Positions 24,750-61,003 of a DNA stretch of 64,000 bases are shown here, one piece after another (within the stretch, counting starts at the first letter, position 1; each line of letters starts with the position of its first letter). The notes under the pieces are model-generated. The model was not told the origin of the DNA. It saw only the letters and a program-made list of their open reading frames with translations, and did no database searches. The stretch is taken from positions 496,001 through 560,000 of the forward strand of contig NC_010161.1 of assembly GCF_000196435.1 (NCBI RefSeq), written 5' to 3'. The translations under genes were made by a program, and so were the position numbers. The stretch is from Bartonella tribocorum CIP 105476 (GTDB lineage: Bacteria > Pseudomonadota > Alphaproteobacteria > Rhizobiales > Rhizobiaceae).

Positions 24750-25907
24750 GTGAGGGGAATCCATAGATTATCAGCATTACTTGTCAAGTCTGCTTCTCAG
24801 GGTAAATATTGTGATGGAGCAGGGCTATGGTTGAATGTTCGAGAAGACAATACGCGCTCTTGGTTCTTTCGTTATACATACCACAACAAACGCCGTGAAA
24901 TGGGGCTCGGTCCAGTTGCACAACTTTCTCTGAAAGAAGCGCGCGAACTTGCCAAGCATTATAGTGCTATTCTCAGAGAAGGCAATGACCCTATTGTCTT
25001 TCGAGAACAAACCGTCTTAAAACAGCAAAGCAACATATTCAGTGAGATTGCAACTGCGGCTTTTGAAAGTAAAAAAGCAGAGTTAAAAAATGAAGGCAAA
25101 AATGGGCGCTGGTTTTCTCCGCTGGAATTGCATGTTATTCCACACATAGGCGGCCTCTCTATAGAAAAATTAACGGCTAATATCATTCGCAATGTTCTGG
25201 CTCCTCTTTGGCATGAAAAAGCAGACACAGCACGAAAAGCACTTAATCGTATTAACATTTGTTTGAAATATGCTGCGGCTCTTGGTTTGGACGTTGATCT
25301 ACAAGCTTGTATGAAAGCACGCGCCCTTTTAGGAAAACCCCGTGCAACATCAACAAATATCCCTGCTATGCCATGGCAAGAAGTTCCGGCATTTTATCAA
25401 AGCTTAGATGATAATATCCTTTCAAATTTAGCACTGAAGTTACTTGTTTTGACAGGAGTACGGTCATATCCATTGCGCTATTTTCGTCTTGAACAAATAG
25501 ATAAAAATATATGGACAATACCCAAAGAAAATATGAAGGGCATTGTAGGGAAAGTTTCAGATTTTCGCGTGCCATTAAGTCATGAAGCTTTGAAAGTGAT
25601 TGAGAAATCCCTCCCCTTTGAAAAAAATGGTTTTCTCTTTTCTGGTCTTACAGGCAAGCCAATTTCTGATGCAAGCATGGCAAAATATATGACAGTTTGT
25701 GGTTTGACTTATCGTCCCCATGGTTTTCGTTCCAGCTTACGGGATTGGATAGCAGAGACAACATCAACACCTTTTGAGATTGCAGAAACTGTTCTTGCGC
25801 ATTCAGTTGGGAGTTCAGTGACAAAAGCTTATATGCGAACGGACTTTTTAGAACAGCGACATGCTCTCTTGGAACAGTGGGCTGCATTTATAACAGGAGC
25901 GACTTGA
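24750..25907 (+). CDS. Tyrosine integrase, P4-type, apparently intact
   Basis: 385 residues, GTG start at 24750 with GAGAAGGG upstream. The DUF4102 N-terminal domain (KYCDGAGLWLNV, RREMGLGP) is followed by the catalytic domain with Arg in TGVRSYPLR, His-x-x-Arg in HGFRSSLRDW, and the nucleophile tyrosine in TKAYMRTDFLEQR. It is homologous to but clearly diverged from the broken copy at 9715-10879. It lies between the podovirus block and the antirepressor modules and is the only complete recombinase in the window. It may mobilise the podovirus block. Confidence 0.9.
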   Translation: MRGIHRLSALLVKSASQGKYCDGAGLWLNVREDNTRSWFFRYTYHNKRREMGLGPVAQLSLKEARELAKHYSAILREGNDPIVFREQTVLKQQSNIFSEIATAAFESKKAELKNEGKNGRWFSPLELHVIPHIGGLSIEKLTANIIRNVLAPLWHEKADTARKALNRINICLKYAAALGLDVDLQACMKARALLGKPRATSTNIPAMPWQEVPAFYQSLDDNILSNLALKLLVLTGVRSYPLRYFRLEQIDKNIWTIPKENMKGIVGKVSDFRVPLSHEALKVIEKSLPFEKNGFLFSGLTGKPISDASMAKYMTVCGLTYRPHGFRSSLRDWIAETTSTPFEIAETVLAHSVGSSVTKAYMRTDFLEQRHALLEQWAAFITGAT

Positions 25908-26178
25908 CAGGCTTATAACAATGTGTCTATTGTCGAATCAGGTGCCTGAAAAACACCTTGAATCGATAGCGGATAGATTGCCGAAACAATCTTTTTTCCG
26001 CACATTAAAGGCTTTGACTTGTTATATGCTACATGCGTATAATAGATTTGTCGGGTGTAGTTACGCTATACAATACTCTTTATGGGGAAAGTGTAACGAC
26101 GGACTATCGACCGTGTTTTCTAGCGCCCGGCACTCTTTTAGAGTGTCAATAGAAAACCTCTAATCGATAGGAGTTCAT
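25904..26178 (+). ncRNA. Antirepressor leader RNA, copy A (putative two-state switch)
   Basis: Promoter P1 is TTGACA 25904 with TATTGT 25928. Box1 is 25948-25969 (GAAAAACAC, TCGATAG). Hairpin H2 is GATTG/CAATC at 25976-25991 inside GCGGA/TCCGC. A second promoter-like element P2 is TTGACT 26014 with TATAAT 26038. Hairpin H5 is GTTACGCT 26060 with AGTGTAAC 26090. Box2 is CTATCGA 26104 and GTGTTTTC 26113. Hairpin H6 is GGCACTC 26129 with GAGTGTC 26141. Box3 is TAGAAAAC 26150 and TCGATAG 26164, running into the GGAG ribosome site. Box2 can pair with Box1 or Box3 but not both. The left end overlaps the integrase stop. Confidence 0.7.
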
Positions 26179-26736
26179 ATGAACACTCTTATAAAAATTA
26201 AAGAACGGATTATTGATCAGGAAACTGTTCAAACCGTTAATGCACGTGATTTGCATGCATTTTTAGGAATCACATCAAAGTTTGCAGACTGGATTAAAAA
26301 TCGCATTAAAGAATGTAAGTTTTTGGAAAATATAAACTTTATAACGCTTTCTAAAAATTTAGAAAACGGTGGAAAGGTAAAAGAATACCACATTACCTTA
26401 GACATGGCTAAACACCTTTCCATGATCGAACGTAATGATAAAGGACATGAAGCGCGTCAATTTTTTAATTTTTTGTTTGACAACATGTCAATATTATGTC
26501 TATTGTCGAATCAGGTGCCTAACAAACACCTTAAGCAACTAGCGGATGGATTGCCGAAACAATCTTTTCTCCGCAAATTTAAATTTTTGACTTATTGTAT
26601 GCGTATAGCGTATAAGGAAGTTTGTCGGGTGTGGTTACACTATAAAATACCCTTGCGGGGAAAGTGTAACGACGGACTAGTTGCCGTGTTTGTTAGCGCC
26701 CGGCACTCTCTTAGAGTGTCATTAACAAACATCTAA
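26179..26736 (+). CDS. Truncated AntA-type antirepressor fused to the next leader
   Basis: The first 95 residues (ETVQTVNARDLHAFLGITSK, KEYHITLDMAKHLSMIER, GHEARQFF) are an AntA domain, almost the same as in the intact gene at 38476. The KilAC half is missing. From about residue 97 the frame runs into leader B (from 26477) and only ends at 26736, 17 bp before the start of the next antirepressor. Ribosomes on this frame would cross Box1, Box2 and Box3 of leader B. The C-terminal 88 residues are therefore leader sequence read as protein. It was probably truncated when module B recombined into it. Confidence 0.7.
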   Translation: MNTLIKIKERIIDQETVQTVNARDLHAFLGITSKFADWIKNRIKECKFLENINFITLSKNLENGGKVKEYHITLDMAKHLSMIERNDKGHEARQFFNFLFDNMSILCLLSNQVPNKHLKQLADGLPKQSFLRKFKFLTYCMRIAYKEVCRVWLHYKIPLRGKCNDGLVAVFVSARHSLRVSLTNI

Positions 26737-26752
26737 CAACTAGGGGGTCACA
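26477..26752 (+). ncRNA. Antirepressor leader RNA, copy B
   Basis: Same architecture as copy A with a different barcode. P1 is TTGACA 26477 with TATTGT 26501. Box1 is CTAACAAACAC 26519 plus CAACTAG 26536. Box2 is CTAGTTG 26677 plus GTGTTTGTTAG 26686. Box3 is TAACAAAC 26723 plus CAACTAG 26737, abutting the GGGGG ribosome site. H5 pairs GTTACACT with AGTGTAAC, a compensated version of copy A. The P2 -10 is weaker (TATAAG). Confidence 0.7.
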
Positions 26753-27499
26753 ATGACTCTCATTAAAATATCAGAACAAGCAATTGGATAAGAGATTGTT
26801 CAAACCGTTAGTGCACGCGAATTGCATGCATTCTTAGAGGTAAAACGGGATTTTTCCAATTGGATTAAAGATCGTATCAATAAATATGATTTTAAAGAGG
26901 AAAGAGATTATATTTTAACGCTCGCCAAAATTGGCGAACGTCAAAATGTGGTATTAAAAGAATATCACCTCACCTTAAGTGTAGCCAAAGAACTTTCTAT
27001 GGTAGAGAACAATAAGAAAGGTAGAGAAGCTCGTTTATATTTTATAGAATGTGAAAAACGTGCAAAGCAAGTGACAACACCACAAGTAGATCTTGCCAAT
27101 GCTTTGGAAAATCCTCTTACGATTAAACAGCTCCTTTTAGAGAGCATCAATCAATTAGAAGACTTAAGAAATGAGGTGAGTACACTCAAGCCAAAAGCCG
27201 AAGCTTTAGAAGGCTTAAAACGTTCTGATGGGTTGTTTGGTCTTATTGAAGCAGCGAAGATGTTAGAAGTGCGACCAAAGGATTTAACGAATTACTTGCG
27301 CAAACATGACTGGGTCTATCGACGAGCTCCAGGGGCGCCTTTGTTGCCTTATCAAGATAAAATCAAGAAAGGATTCATGGATTGCCCTGCTATCACCATT
27401 CAAAGACCGGATGGTACAGAAAAGGTACTCCCTTCCACAAAAATCACATCGAGAGGATTGGCATGTTTAAGAGAGCAAATCCATGGAGGTGTGCAATGA
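26753..27499 (+). pseudogene. AntA-KilAC antirepressor with an early stop codon
   Basis: The start expected from the other copies is ATG 26753 (after GGGGG). Codon 13 is TAA at 26789-26791, where the intact copies have CAA in IDQE; one C-to-T change explains it. After the stop the frame is open: an AntA-like N-terminal domain (SARELHAFLEVKRDFSNWIK), a middle section unique to this copy (ENPLTIKQLLLESINQLEDL), and the common KilAC domain ([39 protein letters not shown]). Restart at TTG 26822 is conceivable but has no clear ribosome site. Antirepressors bind or titrate phage repressors to start lytic growth. Confidence 0.75.
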
Positions 27500-30627: not shown

Positions 30628-30906
30628 TTAAGCAACCTTTTTAATGGGGTTCTCTGAATCTGGATTATAAGCGCGCAATAAAGAATCCATGCTATGCGGT
30701 AACTCTGAAGCTCCAAAATCTGTAAGAATTGCTAAAATCTTTGTAATATTGGGTAGTTCATTTTGAAGTTTTAAAACTAAAACTTTTTCTATCAATTCCA
30801 TAACTTCAACTATGGCATTACAATTTTCATCTCCAATGCCTCGATGATTGGAAAATTTAAACAGTGCCATCCATAAATCACATAAGAAGTTGGTATCTAT
30901 CTTCAT
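30628..30906 (-). CDS. 92-residue antirepressor-module protein, copy C
   Basis: Paralogue of the 27496 protein: [19 protein letters not shown], a central [21 protein letters not shown], and an [12 protein letters not shown]...NPIKKVA end. ATG 30906 overlaps the antirepressor stop by 4 bp and has GGAGGT upstream. Function unknown. The ends are far more conserved than residues 18-40, so the variable section may match the partner. Confidence 0.7.
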
Positions 30907-31628
30907 TGCACACCTCCATGGATTTGTTCTCTCAAACATGCCAATCCTCTCGATGTGATTTTCGTTGAAGGGAGTACCTTTTCTGTACCATCCGGTCTTT
31001 GAATGGTGATAGCAGGACAATCCATGAATCCTTTCTTGATTTTATCTTGATAAGGTAACAAAGGCGCCCCTGGAGCCCGTCGATAGACCCAATCATGTTT
31101 ACGCAAATAATCCGTTAAATCCTTTGGTCGCACCTCCAACATCTTTGCCGCTTCAATAAGACCAAACAGACCATCAGAACGTTTTAAACCTTCCAAAGCC
31201 TCTGCTTTTGGAGTTAATTCTGCAATGGTGTTATCCTTCTTCTCGATTTGACTTTGTAGATGATTTAAGACACCAAGTAATGCTTCGGGTTTGGAATAAT
31301 CAACTTGTGGTGTTGCTACCTGCTTTTCCAATTCTTGCCAACGGTCAATGATTTTTGCTCGCAAGGCAGTGTTGTAACCAGACACGAGAATTAAACATTC
31401 ACGCTTGGGCAGGTTATAGCAGTTTTGAGGCTTTCCCTGTTTGTCTAAATAGGTGCCCCCAAATTTGGGGAGACCTCTTTCAGCGTATAATTCTTCAAGT
31501 ATTCTCTTAATATCTCGCATAACATGGTCATGCCTTTTACCACACAATTCGGCAATCTCACGACTAGACATAGTCGGAACCGCTGCGTCGTTAGCAACGT
31601 TTTCGGTAATTTTAATAAAGGTATTCAT
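30903..31628 (-). CDS. Rha-KilAC phage antirepressor
   Basis: 241 residues. The N-terminal Rha domain ([52 protein letters not shown]) binds DNA. A short coiled coil ([18 protein letters not shown]) links it to the KilAC domain ([32 protein letters not shown] end). The KilAC half is almost identical to the copies at 38476 and 59983. Intact. Preceded by leader C, whose Box3 overlaps the GGAG ribosome site. Confidence 0.88.
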
Positions 31629-31901
31629 GTCAACTCCTGCTCGATTAGACGTTTTTGATTGACACTCTAAAAGAGTGCCGGGCGCTCAAAAACACGGCGA
31701 ACAGTCCGTCGTCACGCTTTTCCCATAAGGGTATTGTATAGCGTAACTACACCCGACAAATCTATTATACGCATGTAGCATATAATGAGTCAAAGTCTTT
31801 AATGTGTGGAGAAGAGATTGTGTCGGCAATCTATCCGCTGTTCGTTTAAGGTGTTTTTGAGGCACCTGATTCGATTATTCATATTGTCGCCAGATTGTCA
31901 A
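31629..31901 (-). ncRNA. Antirepressor leader RNA, copy C
   Basis: Coordinates below are plus-strand; the RNA reads right to left. P1 -35 is at 31896-31901. Box1 occupies 31838-31844 and 31851-31861 (RNA sense CTCAAAAACAC, CGAACAG). Box2 occupies 31685-31695 and 31698-31704 (CTGTTCG, GTGTTTTTGAG), fully complementary to Box1 over 11 + 7 bp. Box3 is 31637-31643 and 31651-31658 (TCAAAAAC, CGAGCAG), pairing with one G-U. The P2 -10 is TATAAT. Confidence 0.7.
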
Positions 31902-38203: not shown

Positions 38204-38475
38204 TTGACATTATTTATGCAATGTGTATTTTCGAATCAGGTGCCTGAAAAACGCCTTAAATACCAAGCGGACAAACTACCGACATAGTTTATTTTCCGCA
38301 CATTAAATACTTTGACTCGTTATATGCTACGTGCGTATAATAATTCTGTCGGGTGTGGTTATGCTATACAATACCCTTTCGGGGAAAGCGTAACGACGGA
38401 CTTGGTACCGTGTTTTTCAGCGCCCGACACTCTTTAGAGTGTCAATGAAAAACCTCTATTACCAAGGAGTTCGTT
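38204..38475 (+). ncRNA. Antirepressor leader RNA, copy D
   Basis: P1 -35 is TTGACA 38204-38209. Box1 is CTGAAAAACGC 38244 plus TACCAAG 38261. H2 is AAACTA 38273 with TAGTTT 38285, a compensated change from GATTG/CAATC in copies A and B, inside GCGGA/TCCGC. Box2 is CTTGGTA 38401 plus GTGTTTTTCAG 38410. H6 lies between. Box3 is TGAAAAAC 38446 plus TACCAAG 38460, which continues into GGAG. It lies antisense to the direction of the late operon. Confidence 0.7.
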
Positions 38476-39207
38476 ATGAACACACTTATAGAAATATCAG
38501 AACAGGTTATTGATCAAGAAACTGTTCAAACTGTTAATGCACGCGATTTGCATGCGTTTTTAGAGATAAAAGCCCGCTTCAATGATTGGATTAAAAATCG
38601 CATTAAAGAATATAAGTTTCAGGAAAATATAAACTTTATAACGCTTACTAAAAATTTAGTAAACGGTGGAAAGGTAAAAGAATACCACATTACCTTAGAC
38701 ATGGCTAAACACCTTTCAATGATAGAGCGTAATGATAAAGGGCATGAAGCTCGTCAATATTTTATCAAATGTGAACGGCTTTTGAAACAAGTCGCTACTC
38801 CACAAGTTGATTATTCCAAACCAGAAGCATTACTGGGTGTTTTGAATCATCTACAAAGCCAAATCGAGCAAAAAGATCATGCTATTGCAGAATTGACACC
38901 AAAAGCCGAAGCTTTGGAAGGTTTAAAACGTTCTGATGGTTTGTTTGGTCTTATTGAAGCGGCAAAGATGTTGGAGGTGCGACCAAAGGATTTAACGGAT
39001 TACTTGCGTAAACATGATTGGGTCTATCGACGGGCTCCAGGGGCGCCTTTGTTACCTTATCAGGATAAAATCAAGAAAGGCTTTATGGATTGTCCTGCTA
39101 TCACCATTCAAAGACCGGATGGTACAGAAAAGGTACTCCCTTCAACAAAAATCACATCCAGAGGATTGGCATGTTTGAGAGAACAAATCCATGGAGGTGT
39201 GCAATGA
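38476..39207 (+). CDS. AntA-KilAC phage antirepressor, intact
   Basis: 243 residues. The AntA domain (ETVQTVNARDLHAFLEIKAR, GHEARQYFIKCERLLKQ) is joined through [18 protein letters not shown] to the KilAC domain shared by all copies. It is the best full-length reference for the truncated gene at 26179 and the nonsense copy at 26753. Phage antirepressors relieve repression by sequestering repressor or competing at operators. It is inserted between the sheath gene and a TA cluster, transcribed against the late genes. Confidence 0.88.
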   Translation: MNTLIEISEQVIDQETVQTVNARDLHAFLEIKARFNDWIKNRIKEYKFQENINFITLTKNLVNGGKVKEYHITLDMAKHLSMIERNDKGHEARQYFIKCERLLKQVATPQVDYSKPEALLGVLNHLQSQIEQKDHAIAELTPKAEALEGLKRSDGLFGLIEAAKMLEVRPKDLTDYLRKHDWVYRRAPGAPLLPYQDKIKKGFMDCPAITIQRPDGTEKVLPSTKITSRGLACLREQIHGGVQ

Positions 39208-59707: not shown

Positions 59708-59986
59708 TTAAGCAACCTTTTTAATAGGGCTCTCGAAATTCGGTTCATAAGTTTTCAACAAAGGTTCCATAATCGGAGGAGGTTTTAAGGCTCCAAAATT
59801 TGTAATCATTGCTAAAATTTTGAGTGCATTCGGACTTTCATCTTGAAGCTTTAAAATTAAAGTTTTTTCTATCGCATCCATAGTTTCAATGAGAGCACTA
59901 AAAGCTTTATCTTCAACATCATCACGATCAGAAAACTGATACAACGCCATCCACAAATCGCATAAAAAATCAATACTGGTTTTCAT
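59708..59986 (-). CDS. 92-residue antirepressor-module protein, copy E
   Basis: Fourth paralogue. [40 protein letters not shown], ending LKTYEPNFESPIKKVA. It overlaps the antirepressor stop by 4 bp and has GGAGGT upstream. Function unknown. Very close to the 39204 copy although the two are in modules with different N-terminal domain types. Confidence 0.7.
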   Translation of the reverse strand: MKTSIDFLCDLWMALYQFSDRDDVEDKAFSALIETMDAIEKTLILKLQDESPNALKILAMITNFGALKPPPIMEPLLKTYEPNFESPIKKVA

Positions 59987-60723
59987 TGCACACCTCCATG
60001 GATTTGTTCTCTCAAACATGCCAATCCTCTCGATGTGATTTTTGTGGAAGGGAGTACCTTTTCTGTACCATCCGGTCTTTGAATGGTGATAGCAGGGCAA
60101 TCCATGAATCCTTTCTTGATCTTGTCTTGATAAGGCAACAGAGGTGCTCCTGGAGCCCGTCGATAGACCCAGTCATGTTTGCGCAAGTAATCGGTTAAGT
60201 CCTTTGGTCGCACCTCTAATATCTTTGCAGCTTCAATAAGACCAAACAAACCATCAGAGCGCTTTAAACCTTCTAAAGCTTCTGCTTTTGGAGTCAATTC
60301 AGCAATGGTGTTATCCTTCTTCTCGATTTGATTTTGTAGGTGATTCAAGACACCAAGTAATGCTTCGGGTTTAGAATAGTCAACTTGTGGTGTTGCTATT
60401 TGCTTTTCCAATTCTTGCCAACGGTCAATAATCTTTGCTCGTAAAGTAGTGTTATAACCAGAAACAAGAATTAGACATTCACGCTTTGGAAGGTTGTAAC
60501 AAGGAAGTGTACGCCCTGTTGAGTCTTTGTATAATCCTGAAAAATCACTCACCCCAAATTTGGGGGCAGTACTTTCAGAGTTTAATTCTCCTAACATTTG
60601 TTTAATGTCACGCATGACATGGTCATGTCTTTTACCGCACAACTCAGCAATTTCGCGACTAGACATAGTCTGAGTGGTAGCACTATTAGCAGTGCTTTCT
60701 CTAATTTTTATAAGAGTGTTCAT
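59983..60723 (-). CDS. Rha-KilAC phage antirepressor
   Basis: 246 residues. The Rha domain ([40 protein letters not shown]) plus the linker and KilAC domain almost identical to the 30903 copy. It differs mainly in the wing segment at about residues 40-65. Intact. Controlled by leader E. Confidence 0.88.
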   Translation of the reverse strand: MNTLIKIRESTANSATTQTMSSREIAELCGKRHDHVMRDIKQMLGELNSESTAPKFGVSDFSGLYKDSTGRTLPCYNLPKRECLILVSGYNTTLRAKIIDRWQELEKQIATPQVDYSKPEALLGVLNHLQNQIEKKDNTIAELTPKAEALEGLKRSDGLFGLIEAAKILEVRPKDLTDYLRKHDWVYRRAPGAPLLPYQDKIKKGFMDCPAITIQRPDGTEKVLPSTKITSRGLACLREQIHGGVQ

Positions 60724-61003
60724 AATGAACTCCTTGTTGATAGATGTTTCTTAATGACACTCCAAAAGAGCGCCGGGTGCTAAGAAACACGGCAACAAGC
60801 CCGTCGTTATGCTTTTCCCCCGAAAGGGTATTTTATGACATAACCACACCCGACAAGACCAGTATACGCTATACGCGCATAATGAGTCAAAGCCTTTACA
60901 ATGTGCGGAAGACTGATTATTTCGGCAACCAATCCGCTTGTTGTTTTGAGGTGTTTCTTAGGCACCTGATTCGACAATATGCATAACGTCACTGCCTTGT
61001 CAA
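60724..61003 (-). ncRNA. Antirepressor leader RNA, copy E
   Basis: Plus-strand coordinates; the RNA reads right to left. P1 -35 is 60998-61003. Box1 is 60937-60943 and 60951-60961 (RNA CTAAGAAACAC, CAACAAG). Box2 is 60780-60790 and 60793-60799 (CTTGTTG, GTGTTTCTTAG), perfect to Box1 over 7 + 11 bp. Box3 is 60733-60739 and 60746-60753 (TAAGAAAC, CAACAAG), perfect to Box2, then GGAG. The P2 -10 is TATACT. Confidence 0.7.

Follow-up and report, generated by a model that had tools for sequence, protein, structure and literature searches.

What kind of RNA stands in front of the antirepressor genes of Bartonella tribocorum CIP 105476, and what does its repeated occurrence in one genome mean? The stretch of DNA analyzed here (the window; 64,000 nt of contig NC_010161.1) contains five leaders, each of which runs from a TTGACA to a start codon and carries three short boxes in the same order and spacing: leader A (25904..26178, plus strand; it ends at the base before the ATG of an AntA gene), leader B (26477..26752, plus), leader C (31629..31901, minus), leader D (38204..38475, plus), and leader E (60724..61003, minus). 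These leaders and their three-box pairing, which a first-pass annotation had described at these positions, were confirmed. On the plus strand of leader A, Box1 consists of the short box TCGATAG (25963..25969) and an arm, AAAACAC (about 25950-25956, read by eye). The Box2 short box CTATCGA (26104..26110) lies in the P3 loop of a core RNA (26049..26140), and the Box2 arm (26114-26124) follows. The Box3 short box TCGATAG (26164..26170) continues into the ribosome site AGGAG, and the Box3 arm TAGAAAAC was read by eye at 26150-26157. The positions of Box1, core, Box2, and Box3 are 26536-26542, 26623-26713, 26677-26683 (CTAGTTG), and 26737-26743 in leader B; 31838-31844, 31668-31758, 31698-31704 (CTGTTCG), and 31637-31643 (CGAGCAG) in leader C; 38261-38267, 38347-38437, 38401-38407 (CTTGGTA), and 38460-38466 in leader D; and 60937-60943, 60764-60854, 60793-60799 (CTTGTTG), and 60733-60739 in leader E. 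As annotated, the partners change with the code, Box1 and Box3 being reverse complements of Box2 in all five leaders except for Box3 of leader C, which reads CGAGCAG instead of the CGAACAG listed at first and thus forms one G-U pair; the other short-box sequences were as listed. The Box1:Box2 pairing of 7 bp plus an arm of 8-11 bp was too generous for leader A, where the match between the longer Box1 arm and Box2 extends to no more than 6-7 bp. Elsewhere in this genome, leaders D and E are found again with equal blastn scores at 386,771 and 409,365 (G000:C2, 386-410 kb), which suggests related prophages in one genome.

A protein domain scan found an antirepressor (AntA or Phage_pRha) downstream of all five window leaders, and KilAC was matched in four of them, the exception being gene A. 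Gene A (AntA; 26179..26736, plus) is followed by the gene behind leader B (AntA and KilAC; 26753..27499, plus), and the genes behind leaders C, D, and E are at 30903..31628 (Phage_pRha and KilAC, minus), 38476..39207 (AntA and KilAC, plus), and 59983..60723 (Phage_pRha and KilAC, minus), respectively. The 13th codon of the ATG frame of gene B (26753-26791) is a stop, and the frame is open from TTG 26822. The gene A frame crosses the whole of leader B, with its stop right before leader B Box3, and eight tandem pairs of leaders are spaced 570-579 bp apart; translation of the first gene may therefore disturb the second leader. The 15 downstream proteins scanned in this genome were AntA, pRha, and YdcK-solenoid proteins, with one unmatched. 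An assignment of the second downstream gene class to XRE Trp genes was rejected because its proteins consist of YdcK beta-solenoid repeats (213-256 aa in the four scanned, behind L026, L031, L035, and L040).

The first-pass annotation could name no known RNA class for these leaders. This no longer holds, since the core is a relative of Rfam family RF02221 (sRNA-Xcc1) and the layout is that of the c4 locus of phage P1. An Rfam search gave no family at its gathering cut-off within the window; at a relaxed threshold, cmscan matched leader A to RF02221 over the whole length of the family (44.0 bits, E 8.5e-7, under the gathering cut-off of 53 bits). Used as a query, leader A found 24 places in its own genome, and RF02221 also found 24. 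All 24 copies matched model positions 1-87, 23 of them at E ≤ 3.2e-6 and one at 0.095, and the gathering cut-off was reached by two of the 24 and by none of the window leaders. RF02221 was matched at E ≤ 0.001 in 50 of 71 Bartonella genomes, with at least one copy at gathering in 38 of the 71, and in 55 of 398 sampled Pseudomonadota genomes, the present one included. The core folds into a stem P1 that closes P2 and P3; Box2 forms the P3 loop, with its arm as the strand that connects P3 to P1. The C4 model (RF01695) matched nowhere in the genome at E ≤ 10, RF02221 had no match in the loci of phages P1 and P4 with the cut-offs applied there (E ≤ 10 and E ≤ 0.1), and Rfam assigns RF02221 to no clan and C4, c4-a1b1, and c4-2 to the shared clan CL00128. 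By this test, therefore, the core does not belong to the C4 family. Near one RF02221 unit, a match to c4-2 (RF02944) was seen at L058:2890-2958 (34.8 bits, under the gathering cut-off of 41).

To describe the box codes across the genus, we combined the stretches found by a pattern scan of the named genomes (116, one of them from Hymenobacter and excluded) with the copies of the present genome and further Bartonella loci. Leaving out leaders that hold N or lie too close to a locus end, this gave 201 distinct Bartonella leaders with 38 Box2 codes, in which only five code positions are free because the search pattern fixes the CT of Box2 along with the P3 stem. Box1 was perfectly complementary to Box2 in 180 of the 201 leaders, Box3 in 173, and both in 158, and the claim of copy-specific pairing thus stood well above chance: when partners were swapped in 2,000 permutations, both boxes were perfect in 8.7 leaders on average and never in more than 20. 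At least one leader with both boxes perfect was found for 35 of the 38 codes. For the 19 distinct leaders of the own genome, none of 10,000 partner swaps reached the complementarity seen with the own partners in any of four tests. In three copies of this genome, Box1 does not match Box2 (L018, L019, and L024), and in L024 neither box matches; L018 and L019 look recombinant. A minimal pair (L165 and L169) has near-identical sequence between the boxes, yet carries coordinated differences in short boxes and arms at each of the three places.

Covariation was measured in 38 leaders, one drawn at random for each Box2 code, with the structure taken from one row; the leaders in this set are related. 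In Box1:Box2, 96.3% of 650 cells were paired, with a covariation of 0.476 (0.130 in shuffles) and 127 double changes (37.9 in shuffles). In Box2:Box3, the corresponding values were 85.7% of 533 cells, 0.382 (0.141), and 98 (36.2). The core stems were paired in 98.3% of 721 cells with 32 double changes against 11.4 in shuffles, and sliding the partners abolished the pairing of both box helices and of the core. The covariation expected of a wider alignment was accordingly found above shuffles in both helices, but the number of pairs with change on both sides was not. Thus, Box2 occupies the P3 loop and the following strand, Box1 and Box3 are complementary to it, and the code changes together at all three places.

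On this basis, we consider it probable (roughly 0.78) that each leader encodes a C4-type antisense RNA that silences its own antirepressor at Box1 and Box3, with a private code for each copy. The core would be released by processing or, in Bartonella, possibly be made from its own internal promoter, and would then act in trans on transcripts that carry the same code. Its pairing at Box1 would favor early termination, and its pairing at Box3 would hide the ribosome site and keep the antirepressor off in the lysogen. On newly made RNA, Box1 may also pair with Box2 in cis and thereby keep the ribosome site accessible at first. The 7-nt code would spare the many copies in a genome mutual silencing, and it would determine heteroimmunity among prophages, just as in P1 and P7 with their C4 code. 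Adjacent leaders on the same strand within the fetched loci never shared a code (0 of 43 pairs; about 2.3 expected from code frequencies). Selection for differing codes in neighbors was considered and not retained, since this difference is not significant (a chance of about 0.09, with the expectation summed by hand).

The first-pass annotation had instead proposed that Box1:Box2 opens and Box2:Box3 closes the ribosome site. Taken as a rival, this makes the leaders attenuators acting only in cis, with the fold picked by some signal such as promoter choice, a ligand, or transcription speed, and with nothing acting in trans. Both of these mutually exclusive helices are indeed predicted for leader A. 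When the leader was folded whole, Box1:Box2 appeared in the centroid only; the minimum-energy fold keeps Box2 in the P3 loop and lacks the short Box1:Box2 helix. Folded from the core onward, without Box1, the leader forms a long Box2:Box3 hairpin up to the ribosome site. Promoter-like sequences matching at least 9 of 12 positions precede Box1 in 192 of 199 leaders and stand just before the core in 156 of 199 (two of the 201 leaders are omitted because their core start was not located). Transcripts with and without Box1 are therefore possible, as a cis switch would use. In leader A, such a sequence, TTGACT-18-TATAAT (11 of 12), lies at 26014..26043 on the plus strand, 5 nt before the core. It can also form a hairpin, as can the promoter-like sequence before the core in the Bartonella leaders generally. 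A conserved leader peptide was rejected as a further element, since open frames were present in only 19, 12, and 0 of the 201 leaders, which is above shuffled sequences (2.2) and not general.

Against an attenuator confined to cis stand, first, eight tandem pairs of units 271-276 bp apart, in which the upstream unit has no Box3 and there is no room for a gene; seven of the eight upstream units keep a perfect Box1. A purely cis switch fails for such units, since they retain Box1 and Box2 without Box3 or space for a gene. The pairs are found at L130, L169, L115, L217, L227, L229, L176, and L156, and in all eight pairs, the downstream unit bears another code. In a sample of 31 leaders from G461 (8 of 8 hits), G408 (12 of 16), and G419 (11 of 11), the last of which we take to be B. 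henselae Houston-1, Box3 was absent from six, none of them in G419; in the same survey, it was absent from 2 of 11 leaders in stretches of the own genome. For one of the six (G461, CTTGGTA), a gene-linked leader with the same code lies 6.6 kb away, and for the other five, none was seen in the stretches read. In this small sample, the units without Box3 fit action in trans. Second, a cis switch has no need for codes that differ in most copies. Third, the phage P1 RNA with the same layout is an antisense RNA on ant mRNA, according to the accessible part of PMC12197685. We therefore regard regulation in cis alone as unlikely.

That the boxes are DNA operators of a copy-specific DNA-binding protein, with the RNA pairing incidental, is very improbable. 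Direct and inverted repeats could serve as operators, and the short boxes are almost strictly Watson-Crick, with three G-U among 266 cells of Box1:Box2. However, the 14 distinct box pairs with a single mismatch comprised 11 G-U, two A-C, and one transversion, as expected for RNA pairing, and the 11:2 ratio of G-U to A-C departs from equality (one-sided binomial P 0.011). Moreover, the longer arms covary as well, Box2 lies in the loop of a conserved RNA fold, and Box3 continues into the ribosome site.

Equally remote is identity with the Brt RNAs. These precede XRE Trp genes, have been proposed to act as a riboswitch and in trans, and share with the leaders the genus, multiple copies, a similar length, and a place upstream of regulatory genes (PMC5387305, as far as accessible). 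Brt identity, our first reading, was dropped because all 11 matches in G419 (E ≤ 1) fall within 39 kb, whereas Brt1-9 span 277 kb in B. henselae, and XRE was found in none of the 15 own downstream proteins scanned, and the genome has 24 copies against the 34 Brt RNAs printed for B. tribocorum (same source).

The three-box layout can also be followed outside the genus. We took 30 distant RF02221 loci, the best matches of high-scoring genomes from the 55 of 398 Pseudomonadota. In each of four tests, the box matches to the own partner exceeded all 10,000 swaps. Loop matches of 7 nt or more were found upstream in 23 and downstream in 15 of the 30 loci, and arm matches of this length in 25 and 13, respectively. 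Genomes with repeated hits supplied 23 loci (four also among the 30); in these, a loop-region match of 7 nt or more was present upstream in 19, including L295, where the match falls within the stem and not the loop, and downstream in 7. Box3 is thus often weak outside Bartonella (7 of 23 and 15 of 30 loci with a downstream loop match), and Box1 looks the more general target because upstream matches are commoner (19 vs 7 of 23). Between Box1 and the core, a hairpin followed by a T-run was present in 25 of the 30 distant loci compared with 114 of 514 control stretches, and a hairpin with at least three G-C pairs was present in 22 of 30 (by a slightly wider script). Nine of these 22 loci have an antiterminator strand before the terminator (8% in shuffles), which raises the possibility of antitermination. 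The terminator-like hairpins of Bartonella are AT-rich and weak: a loose script found them in 18 of 24, several of these being a different hairpin, and a terminator scan detected none in either leader A or leader B.

A candidate gene of at least 45 codons lies downstream in 28 of the 30 distant loci. Twenty of the 28 proteins were scanned: 10 were of antirepressor type (Bro-N, KilA-N, P22_AR_N, or pRha, one of them under Pfam's cut-off), 2 were SymE, 1 was Rap1a, and 7 were unmatched, and the 10 of 20 is no estimate of the antirepressor share because the first ten were picked for their antirepressor look. The target gene is thus not always an antirepressor, as YdcK-solenoid, SymE, and unmatched genes occur elsewhere. 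The SymE-type toxin genes stand right behind RF02221 cores (L049:1624-1836 and L069:1265-1462) with Box3 at their ribosome site. By eye, all three boxes pair in L069; in L049, Box3 pairs perfectly, and the Box1 pairing includes one G-U. A scan of viral sequences gave nine sites (an earlier, narrower scan had given one contig only), with boxes in seven of them on six contigs; the other two look like chance hits. On one viral contig (L270:8978-9330), two RF02221-like units with boxes lie 330 bp apart, and neither is followed by an evident gene.

More tentatively, and with a probability that we would put well below even, the RF02221 units may form an RNA immunity repertoire, in which, alongside the units linked to genes, orphan units with Box1 and Box2 would silence antirepressors or SymE-like toxins brought in by other mobile elements, using the 7-nt code. 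The orphan units, which have no target gene, would then sit in tandem before a unit of another code. If so, an sRNA family known only for its link to virulence would be a widespread code-based superinfection-immunity system. Silencing of the own antirepressor by a C4-type RNA, the reading that we favor, would by itself provide a widespread Rfam family, whose mechanism is unknown, with a function that can be tested, and it would tie RF02221 to the immunity logic of P1 and P4 despite the differing RNA family. It also predicts that sRNA-Xcc1 beside symE is a silencer of that toxin gene, and the 38 matched codes would be a natural set for studying how RNA-based heteroimmunity diversifies.

Among known systems, the CI RNA of phage P4 is a three-box immunity RNA with boxes seqA, seqB, and seqC, and control in P4 is mainly by transcription termination. 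The leaders share the three boxes; the P4 RNA, however, matches the C4 family (RF01695 at 74.9 bits and isrK at 60.8 bits in the cI stretch), and the core of the leaders does not. In P4, C4 and isrK are over threshold and c4-a1b1 under it, and in the P1 locus, C4 and c4-a1b1 are over threshold and isrK under it.

With sRNA-Xcc1, the leaders share both the sequence and the fold of the core. sRNA-Xcc1 was mapped as an 88-nt RNA (PMC2996969, in excerpt), which is the size of the leader core alone. The accessible parts of PMC2996969 and PMC12189769 present it as an sRNA that acts in trans, is linked to virulence, and has predicted targets; in PMC12189769, C4 and sRNA-Xcc1 are given as two distinct RNAs in the same genome. 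In Xanthomonas integron cassettes, symE lies downstream of sRNA-Xcc1, with regulation called divergent and the mechanism unknown (PMC12444791, in excerpt). In those parts of PMC2996969, PMC12189769, and PMC12444791, no three-box target in the adjacent gene is described. sRNA-Xcc1 is also named in PMC11701678 (likewise in excerpt), and nowhere in the literature covered, which included few subscription papers, is it called a C4-like immunity RNA with targets in its own leader. The C4-like sRNA group of Acinetobacter baumannii resembles the leaders in its many copies per genome and variable loop, but differs in belonging to the C4 family by Rfam and in having cognate targets that were not identified (PMC5320573, accessible sections).

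The closest comparison is with C4 of P1 and P7 (RF01695, with c4-a1b1 as RF03163), an antisense RNA on ant mRNA (PMC12197685) that underlies P1/P7 heteroimmunity (PMC12197685 and PMC5320573, both in excerpt). The P1 record has the order a1 and b1 upstream, C4 RNA, a2 and b2 before icd, and then ant1. Unlike in P1, Box3 of the Bartonella leaders fronts the antirepressor itself and not icd, and there are many copies per genome. The RNAs differ as well: P2 of the leaders has the AUACAA...GGGGAA internal loop of sRNA-Xcc1, and the C4 covariance model is unmatched. Processed C4 RNAs are reported to start with GGW, which the Bartonella core does not. The C4-type mechanism includes cutting of the precursor by RNase P at a GG start; the Bartonella cores begin with TGTCGGG or GTCGGG, many distant cores with GGCCGGG. 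The leaders and C4 nevertheless share the order of sites (a1b1, RNA, and a2b2 over the ribosome site), an antirepressor operon as the target, the P1-P2-P3 stem topology, a two-part pairing through the loop and the following strand, and a code that varies between members (for C4, PMC5320573, in excerpt).
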